Assembly: GCF_019879105.1 (NCBI RefSeq) | Contig: NZ_CP082249.1 | Span: 1,736,001 to 1,800,000 of the forward strand | Reading direction: 5' to 3' | Length of the DNA stretch: 64,000 nt | DNA from: Natrinema sp. SYSU A 869 | GTDB lineage: Archaea; Halobacteriota; Halobacteria; Halobacteriales; Natrialbaceae | Shown here: piece by piece, positions 2,124-45,071 of the stretch | How positions within the stretch are numbered: position 1 is the stretch's first letter | Layout: each line of letters opens with the position of its first letter | Position numbers and translations under genes: made by a program | The notes under the pieces: model-generated | The model's database searches: none | Told to the model about the DNA's origin: nothing | Seen by the model: the letters and a program-made list of their open reading frames with translations, nothing else

Positions 2124-2224
2124 CGTCGCTCCGGCGGGAATCGGTAGCGCGACGCCGAGATGGCCCGCGATCGGTGTCCGATCCTGATTGAGGTGTTTTA
2201 ACCGTGCCGCTCCAAGGAGCGTGC

Positions 2225-2305
2225 ATGAATACGTCCATTTCACGACGCCCGACTCCGTCGGGGGACCGGGGCCTCGAGCGGACGAGCGACGGTGAGAGCA
2301 AATGA
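2225..2305 (+). CDS. 26-codon micro-ORF coupled to small membrane protein 1
   Basis: The ATG at 2225 opens a 26-residue polar, Arg/Ser-rich peptide (MNTSISRRPTP...). Its TGA overlaps the ATG of the next gene as ATGA (2302-2305). A TTTTA box at 2196-2200 is centred 27 nt upstream, the spacing of a leaderless haloarchaeal transcript, so this ORF rather than the downstream gene would sit at the 5' end of the mRNA. A second copy of the module at 2581-2822 has the same peptide length and the same spacing. No homology is recognised. It may be a translated micropeptide or a ribosome-loading device for the coupled gene. Confidence 0.5.
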   Translation: MNTSISRRPTPSGDRGLERTSDGESK

Positions 2306-2466
2306 ACAGACGGCAGTTGCGACCGGTCTATCTGGTGGGCATCGCGCTGAATGTGGTCGCGTTCACGTATGCGGTCACGAACGGAACATGGCTGTATGCG
2401 GGCGCGTTCGTGTTCGTGGCGGTCTATCTCGTCGTACGCCTTCGGATGCTCTCTGCCGACACATAG
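2302..2466 (+). CDS. Small 54-aa membrane protein, copy 1
   Basis: This 54-residue protein starts MNRRQLRPVYL. Two hydrophobic helices are predicted at about residues 9-26 and 30-46, followed by a basic VRLRM segment and an acidic end. It is paralogous to the gene at 2658-2822: an ungapped alignment by eye gives 26 of 54 identical residues, including the RPVYL start, the central AFxY and the VRLRM tail. The function is unknown. The positive N-terminus and short loop suggest a hairpin with both ends in the cytoplasm. Translation is probably coupled to the preceding micro-ORF through the ATGA overlap. Conservation between the copies supports a real gene despite its size. Confidence 0.75.
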   Translation: MNRRQLRPVYLVGIALNVVAFTYAVTNGTWLYAGAFVFVAVYLVVRLRMLSADT

Positions 2467-2580
2467 GTCGTCGCCGAGCGTAGGTACTCGAGGACGGCAA
2501 ACGACGGGACGGCCGAGAGCGCGTCGCTGGGTCCGGTTGCCAGTGAGTAGCTTTTACTATTGTCCATCCGACGAGCGGAT

Positions 2581-2661
2581 ATGAACGGGATTCGACCGGG
2601 GCACGCGGTGCCGACGAGAAAACCGCGACTCGGCACGCGGACGGAGGGACCTGACGAATGA
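2581..2661 (+). CDS. 26-codon micro-ORF coupled to small membrane protein 2
   Basis: The ATG at 2581 opens a 26-residue basic peptide (MNGIRPGHAVPT...) whose TGA overlaps the next ATG as ATGA (2658-2661). A TTTTA box at 2552-2556 is centred 27 nt upstream, exactly as in the first copy. The distance from the leader ATG to the downstream ATG is 77 nt in both copies, although the peptides share almost no residues beyond MN. The conserved geometry suggests that length and position matter more than sequence. No homologue is recognised. Confidence 0.5.
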   Translation: MNGIRPGHAVPTRKPRLGTRTEGPDE

Positions 2662-2822
2662 ACGAACGACGGTTGCGGCCGGTGTATCTGATCGGAGTTG
2701 GGGGATGCGCGTACGCCTTCTGGTACTTCATCTCGTTCGGTGCGAACCTGACCGCTGCCGCGTTCGGCGTCGCGACGGTGGCCCTCATCGTTCGGCTCCG
2801 GATGGTGACTGGCGACTCCTGA
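2658..2822 (+). CDS. Small 54-aa membrane protein, copy 2
   Basis: This 54-residue protein starts MNERRLRPVYLIG, with two hydrophobic helices at about residues 9-25 and 31-46 and a VRLRM motif near the C-terminus. It matches copy 1 at 26 of 54 positions without gaps. It has its own promoter-like box and coupled micro-ORF, so the whole unit of promoter, micro-ORF and membrane protein appears duplicated and then diverged. Function is unknown. The following 176 bases (2823-2998) hold nothing I recognise. Confidence 0.75.
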   Translation: MNERRLRPVYLIGVGGCAYAFWYFISFGANLTAAAFGVATVALIVRLRMVTGDS

Positions 2823-7427: not shown

Positions 7428-7556
7428 ACGAGGACGATTACCGAGCGAGCGCGTCTCTCGAGGCTGGCCATCGGTCCCAGCCCGGTACCCCGAGCCCGAG
7501 CGTCTCGAGCCGAGAGTGAGGTAACGTTTTTTCGCTCCGCGTCGTCGACCTCGAGT

Positions 7557-7592
7557 ATGACGACACGAGTGCGGTCGGAGGGGACGCGATGA
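7557..7592 (+). CDS. 11-codon micro-ORF coupled to downstream gene
   Basis: The ATG at 7557 reads MTTRVRSEGTR and stops at a TGA that overlaps the next gene's ATG as ATGA (7589-7592). A run of T at 7527-7532 lies about 28 nt upstream, placing this ATG at the expected 5' end of a leaderless transcript. The arrangement repeats that seen at 2225 and 2581. The peptide is very short and chance cannot be excluded. Confidence 0.3.
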   Translation: MTTRVRSEGTR

Positions 7593-8149
7593 CGGCGGAC
7601 GAGTCGAAACCGGCGGACGAATCGGAGCCGACGGACGAGTCGGTGGTCGCTGACGGCGCGGAGCCGGCGGGGCCGCTCTGGGAGGACCTCCTCGCGGACG
7701 CGAGCGCCATCGCCGAAGAGTACCGCGAGGACGGCTGGGACGCCGTCGTCCTCGATCCCACTGGCGTCTCGCCGGTCGATCGGGACGAACGGATCGGACT
7801 CGACGTGACGGTCAGTGCCGAGGAGTACGAGGTCGTCGAGACCCTCATCGAGGAGGGAGACGTCACGATCACGTCGGCGAACGTCTACTACCGCCCGCTC
7901 GCGGCGGACGGAAGCGATCGGCGAGTCGCGCTCACGGTCGAGCGCGACGAATCGAGCGAGACGGCGATCTTCGTCCCGCTCACGTACGATATTTCGGCCT
8001 GTCGAGACATCTTCGAACCGGCGCTTCTGGAGGAGGAACTCCTGACCCACGTGACGACCGATTCGACGGACCGGTGGGTCAGCTTCTCCCACGACGATCC
8101 GTCGCTCTTTCTCGAGGAGTCGGACGTTCGAGCGTGGAAGGCGAACTGA
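7589..8149 (+). CDS. Conserved haloarchaeal protein of unknown function (DUF7529-like)
   Basis: A 186-residue soluble, acidic protein. The first 28 residues are a low-complexity Asp/Glu/Ser/Pro tail (TADESKPADESEPTDES). The rest is a compact alpha/beta domain beginning PLWEDLLADASAIAEEYREDGWDAVVL and ending ThrxSTDRWVSFSHDDPSLFLE. I recall a haloarchaeal family with this layout (I believe DUF7529), but the assignment is from memory. No catalytic motif is evident. Translation may be coupled to the micro-ORF at 7557. It ends 12 bp before the convergent nadC. Confidence 0.7.
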   Translation: MTADESKPADESEPTDESVVADGAEPAGPLWEDLLADASAIAEEYREDGWDAVVLDPTGVSPVDRDERIGLDVTVSAEEYEVVETLIEEGDVTITSANVYYRPLAADGSDRRVALTVERDESSETAIFVPLTYDISACRDIFEPALLEEELLTHVTTDSTDRWVSFSHDDPSLFLEESDVRAWKAN

Positions 8150-44663: not shown

Positions 44664-44891
44664 CTACGGCGACCGTCGGTTGCACTGCCACAGGACGACG
44701 GCGAGGCCGACTCCCGTGAGCCCGAGAATCCCGAAGACCAGCAACGAGACGACGAACGCGCCCTCGGACTGCTCACCGAGTGCCATCGCCGCCCCATTCA
44801 GGACGCCCATCACGGTGACGACGACGAGCATGAGATAGAAGTACGAGGCATGGCCACAGAGGATGTCCCAGAACTCCTCGGACGCGTTCAT
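44664..44891 (-). CDS. Small two-helix membrane protein
   Basis: A 75-residue protein with two hydrophobic helices (about residues 16-36 and 45-68) and a basic C-terminus (WQCNRRSP). The start MNASEEFWD is preceded by GGGTGAGA, a good Shine-Dalgarno match, and a gttttaata box about 70 nt upstream, so this mRNA would carry a leader. An in-frame GTG at 44945 would add 18 residues but falls before the expected transcription start region. Function unknown. Confidence 0.65.
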   Translation of the reverse strand: MNASEEFWDILCGHASYFYLMLVVVTVMGVLNGAAMALGEQSEGAFVVSLLVFGILGLTGVGLAVVLWQCNRRSP

Positions 44892-45071
44892 CGTCTCACC
44901 CTCGACGGCGGACCGGTATGGCGACGCATACCTATCCTTGCCCACTCGTCAGTATTAAAACATACCGCCGCAAGAGGGATATGACCGGATAGTCGCGGTT
45001 CAAGAGAACGGCGGACGTTCCGACCACTCGCTTGAGCAGGGGCTGGCGACAACAACAACGCTCGGTCCGCG

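Follow-up and report, generated by a model that had tools for sequence, protein, structure and literature searches.

Small open reading frames (ORFs) on leaderless mRNAs, joined to the next gene by an RTGA sequence, were described in mycobacteria by Shell et al. in 2015 (PMC4633059); the peptides are unconserved, the linkage is conserved, and ribosome delivery was proposed. RTGA-type coupling is also listed as a possible route of ribosome delivery in a 2025 review (PMC12548453). The leaders described here, which precede the genes for a 54-aa membrane protein in the haloarchaeal family Natrialbaceae, have several features in common with the mycobacterial class (PMC4633059): a small ORF stands ahead of the gene (5-50 aa in mycobacteria, 9-49 codons here), its TGA lies inside the RTGA of the gene start, and the linkage is kept while the peptide is not. 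The mycobacterial ORFs have a leaderless RTG start, and a leaderless start is predicted for our leaders from the spacing of the promoter box. The mycobacterial study concerned bacteria and used mapped start sites, ribosome profiling and conservation between two species, whereas the present leaders are archaeal and are compared by sequence in dozens of genomes; moreover, the neutrality of the peptide is measured here, a Shine-Dalgarno (SD) core is found in the leader, and direct leaderless promoters occur as its replacement. A previous sequence-only reading of this DNA had stated that it knew of no such system in the literature, which the mycobacterial RTGA-joined ORFs contradict. In the searchable literature (some subscription Haloferax ribosome-profiling work lies outside its reach), we came across no archaeal example of neutral leaders coupled to a gene; the kind of leader is known from mycobacteria, and its archaeal, neutral, SD-bearing form appears to be undescribed.

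In Haloferax volcanii, termination-reinitiation has been demonstrated for other overlapping gene pairs, nine of which are strictly coupled, and in haloarchaea the SD sequence is amply used for reinitiation and hardly for de novo initiation (PMC6728339). One tested adjacent gene pair of Sulfolobus is quoted in a passage of the same paper as not coupled. As described in the relevant sections of the two studies (Huber et al. 2019, PMC6728339; 2023, PMC10666635), the H. volcanii pairs have in common with our leaders a haloarchaeal host, a 4-nt ATGA overlap and an SD sequence inside the upstream ORF; however, their upstream ORF is an ordinary protein gene, while here it is a leader of 9-49 codons without peptide-level selection. 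For H. volcanii, Babski et al. in 2016 reported 16 cases in which a long 5' UTR carries a uORF of 15-31 aa on the same transcript as the gene (PMC4983044). In the passages that deal with them, these appear as likely real acidic small proteins within 5' UTRs of 150-250 nt, in contrast to our leader peptides with their median pI of 8.5, and stop-start overlap, phase conservation and neutrality are not discussed there. Finally, in the bicistronic-design leaders of synthetic biology, for example in Leuconostoc (PMC5995908), a short first cistron drives the second by coupling, as is proposed here, but those leaders are engineered, whereas ours are natural and predicted to be leaderless.

The window, that is, the whole analysed stretch of 64,000 nucleotides from Natrinema sp. 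SYSU A 869 (contig NZ_CP082249.1, positions 1,736,001 to 1,800,000), contains two adjacent modules, A and B:

2196..2200 (centre 2198), + strand: promoter box TTTTA of copy A, TATA-like, 27 nt before the leader ATG at 2225
2225..2305, + strand: leader micro-ORF A, 26 codons and TGA, peptide MNTSISRRPTPSGDRGLERTSDGESK; translation from a leaderless mRNA 5' end is predicted
2291..2295, + strand: SD core GGTGA in micro-ORF A, assigned to the downstream start; it makes an in-frame TGA at -9 nt
2302..2466, + strand: 54-aa two-helix membrane protein, copy A
2552..2556 (centre 2554), + strand: promoter box TTTTA of copy B, TATA-like, 27 nt before the leader ATG at 2581
2581..2661, + strand: leader micro-ORF B, 26 codons and TGA, peptide MNGIRPGHAVPTRKPRLGTRTEGPDE
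2643..2647, + strand: SD core GGAGG in micro-ORF B, as read from the sequence
2658..2822, + strand: 54-aa two-helix membrane protein, copy B, a tandem duplicate of copy A

The geometry that the sequence-only reading gave for both modules (TTTTA 27 nt before the ATG, 26 codons, ATGA, 77 nt) is correct to the base: the leader-to-gene offset is 77 nt and the stop/start overlap is ATGA in A and in B. It had also noted that the membrane proteins have 26 of 54 residues in common and the micro-peptides almost none, and this is borne out, with 26/54 identical positions in an ungapped comparison of the proteins and 5/26 between the leader peptides. AlphaFold2 models of both window paralogues have helices at residues 3-27 and 30-52 (mean pLDDT 85), that is, a predicted two-helix hairpin. 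The best Pfam match of the 54-aa protein, DUF6358, scores 13.9 bits and falls below the curated cut-off of 28.4, and NCBIfam yields no match to it. No conserved operon partner of the gene was seen in the neighbourhoods inspected. Upstream of the modules in the window lie a gene for an RDD-family protein (81-1667, + strand) and then a separate 136-aa ORF (1713-2123, + strand); in some other Natrinema and in many other genera the upstream neighbour is an isochorismatase-family hydrolase instead. In four of the 20 genera whose neighbourhoods were fetched (L136, L138, L140, L144), the 54-aa gene is followed by an unannotated small protein of 50-64 aa, of the MLES..YVELAIYCYFGLVAAIGLSVHVRLW type.

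Homologues of the 54-aa protein are present, mostly in single copy, in 115 of 125 genomes and 26 of 29 genera of the family. When 391 genomes were sampled from the whole class, 95 matches were obtained, only five of them outside the family, so the protein is nearly confined to it. The tandem pair of 54-aa genes was observed in the window's genus only, among the 125 family genomes searched, and the relatives named with protein A as a query come mostly from Natrinema and also from Halovenus, the nearest being Natrinema species; a related-locus search of genome contigs with protein B as a query found no relative. The tandem pair is a genus-level duplication in which promoter, leader and gene were copied together.

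For comparison of the upstream regions, 130 homologues were extracted with their upstream DNA, and ATGs located 20-150 nt upstream of the gene were scored for a box (TTTT or TTTA) at the leaderless distance. Among box-spaced ATGs, 87/93 open a frame whose stop falls precisely within the RTGA at the 54-aa start; four of the remaining six end within a few nucleotides of it, and two look spurious. ATGs without a box terminate in RTGA in 24 of 69 cases (Fisher p 5e-16 for the difference, not corrected for relatedness). Grouping by genus and leader length leaves 32 classes, of which 29 keep the exact phase (p 2e-11). The 87 leaders have 21 different lengths between 9 and 49 codons, in 11 genera, and change by whole codons; the start tetramer is ATGA in 73 of them, GTGA in 12 and TTGA in two; and the box centre lies 25-31 nt before the leader ATG in all 87, a distance that is only a proxy for the transcription start. 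This phase test indicates that the geometry of the module is beyond chance.

The fixed length and spacing emphasized in the sequence-only reading hold for the window, with 26 codons and 77 nt in both modules, but not for the relatives with their 9 to 49 codons; homologues without the 77-nt spacing, which that reading had named as evidence against itself, were found, and constant length thus fails beyond close relatives. Even in Natrinema, where 26 codons is the commonest length, the leaders of tandem copies A and B are often unequal (25/26, 26/32 and 17/26 codons, besides 26/26). Comparison within the genus points to inheritance as the source of the equal lengths in the window. About one third of the homologues (43/130) fail the combination of box and exact phase; they include direct leaderless and operon-coupled cases, leaders without a recognisable box (L026, L028, L029, L031), and leaders shifted off phase by some nucleotides (L046, L060, L070, L076). 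In L060, the CTGA that closes the leader (upstream of position 591) occupies the site of the ancestral start; the start may have moved to an ATG two codons further upstream, or CTG itself could serve as the start.

The high GC content of these genomes makes chance open frames longer, and the 24 of 69 box-less ATGs ending in RTGA could be taken to mean that the leader ORF is incidental, with transcription starting closer to the 54-aa ATG. We consider this highly improbable: chance would not be expected to put 29 of 32 genus-by-length classes in exact phase, nor to repeat this in an unrelated gene family, DUF7529 (20/20). The DUF7529 module and a third candidate both lie in the window:

7527..7532, + strand: T-rich promoter box of the second, unrelated module
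7557..7592, + strand: leader micro-ORF of the DUF7529 gene, 11 codons, its TGA overlapping the gene start as ATGA
7589..8149, + strand: DUF7529 gene, 186 aa (PF24373, E 1.5e-34)
44888..44929, - strand: leader micro-ORF of the third candidate module, 13 codons, ending in ATGA
44664..44891, - strand: 75-aa hydrophobic membrane protein, the gene that follows the 13-codon leader

A box-spaced DUF7529 leader of 9-20 codons in exact phase is present in 28 of 29 Natrinema genomes and in all 20 sampled genomes of other genera, where it has 10-20 codons. In the third candidate, relatives retain the length of 13 codons with a varying peptide, and three of eight have GTG in place of ATG. A survey of 864 kb of the window's genome gave no enrichment by itself (its purpose-written gene caller overlooks genes below about 40 codons and did not call the 54-aa genes), with 6 of 20 box-spaced ORFs coupled versus 22% of those without a box; it pointed to a few further modules, among them the DUF7529 one inside the window. 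A pyruvate dehydrogenase E1-alpha-like gene has a 7-codon ORF ending in GTGA (G000:C3:2500307-2500330, L234) at 29 of 29 listed Natrinema loci; it was not counted as a module, since in the window's genome a TTTATA also fits a direct leaderless GTG.

The evolution of the leaders was followed in 25 disjoint pairs of close relatives, with the 54-aa ORF taken from the same pairs and intervals obtained by bootstrap. The leader pN/pS is 1.02, or 1.08 with the start codon excluded (95% interval 0.83-1.45), and substitutions at codon positions 1, 2 and 3 number 58:68:56; for the 54-aa ORF, pN/pS is 0.24 (0.18-0.31) and the substitutions are 70:47:181. These values indicate that the leader peptide evolves neutrally and the 54-aa protein does not. 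With pN/pS near 1 and even rates at the three codon positions, selection therefore acts on the frame of the leader and not on its sequence. The suggestion of the sequence-only reading that the peptide acts by composition finds no support in this pN/pS, and the peptide looks like the product of untuned GC-rich DNA.

Overlapping gene pairs often encode subunits of one complex, as stated in a section of PMC10666635, and the leader could by analogy encode a functional micro-peptide partner of the membrane protein, with coupling keeping the two equimolar. Conservation of the leader frame would agree with such a role; however, the pN/pS of about 1, with substitutions spread evenly over the codon positions, the lengths of 9 to 49 codons, and the absence of a leader where the box sits at the 54-aa gene itself make it very unlikely. 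An attenuator, in which codon-specific ribosome pausing or a nascent-peptide stall regulates the gene, is also very unlikely. Leaderless cysteine-rich uORFs were proposed as attenuators in mycobacteria (PMC4633059), and our leaders are Arg-rich (17%), but Arg is expected from GC-rich DNA in an unselected frame. In the leaders neither a residue run nor a length or a position is conserved, and they lack the conserved peptide or codon run, tied to the regulated pathway, of attenuator leaders (pN/pS 1.08); Rfam has no element in 2100-2900.

Further signals are found at the junction. In 78 of 87 leaders, the 15 nt preceding the downstream start include an SD core, as against 13% of control windows taken from leader interiors, and in 43 of 87 the core is GGTGA and creates a TGA in frame at -9 nt from the start. 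The latter bears on the possibility that leader and gene form one protein through -1 frameshifting at the overlap. The frame of the gene is indeed -1 relative to that of the leader; however, apart from the in-frame stop in these 43 leaders, there is free variation in the residues preceding the stop (K, E, T, R, A, G, P, V) and no slippery heptamer is conserved, so that we give this reading practically no weight.

Several homologues have other arrangements upstream of the gene. In ten of them (L038, L040, L050, L053, L075, L078, L079, L094, L098, L102), a leader is absent and the box is instead placed 25-29 nt ahead of the 54-aa ATG; the A of RTGA is lost in seven of these ten. In genus g11, a long upstream frame appears to take the place of the leader, joined to the 54-aa ORF by GTGA coupling (L036, L041, L042, L051, L063). 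In copies A of two Natrinema loci (L008, L020) a leader ATG could not be recognised, and in L092 the codon where a 26-codon leader would start is ACG. Direct promoters, operon coupling and missing leader ATGs are all to be expected of a leader that is one route among several by which ribosomes reach the gene.

The conserved frame, the neutral peptide, the SD enrichment, the RTGA overlap and the spacing of the box, all apparent from the comparison of homologues, are consistent with a leader that is translated from a leaderless mRNA, loads ribosomes and passes them to the 54-aa gene by termination-reinitiation, the peptide being a by-product. We regard this mechanism as very probable. Each module would be a self-contained small-protein gene in which a translated leader replaces the 5' UTR. 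As judged by the box spacing, transcription would start at the A of the leader ATG or at a neighbouring base, and the ribosome would initiate on the AUG at the 5' end, in the manner usual for leaderless mRNAs of haloarchaea. It would then read 9-49 codons of arbitrary sequence and stop at the UGA of the RUGA overlap, where the SD core within the final 15 nt of the leader may position the terminating ribosome for the presumed reinitiation at the overlapping 54-aa start codon. The comparison shows that selection sees unbroken in-frame translation up to the overlap and not the peptide. The view of the leader ORF as a translational device, taken in the sequence-only reading, thus has strong support, with frame and RTGA overlap conserved and the peptide neutral.

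A broader proposal, for and against which we see about equal chances, is that Natrialbaceae have a distinct and recurrent mode of translation start, in which a leaderless neutral 'loader' micro-ORF replaces an SD-bearing 5' UTR before several unrelated gene families and, over evolution, arises, disappears or gives way to direct leaderless promoters. The mechanism proposed for the leaders is directly testable in Haloferax. It also calls for caution in small-protein censuses based on Ribo-seq, where such micro-ORFs need not represent functional peptides. The leaders provide a clean evolutionary case of an upstream ORF conserved for the act of translation and not for its product, with neutral codons and a locked frame. 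Finally, they suggest a way in which archaea dependent on leaderless mRNAs, with little de novo use of SD, may serve genes whose promoter sits upstream of the start codon.
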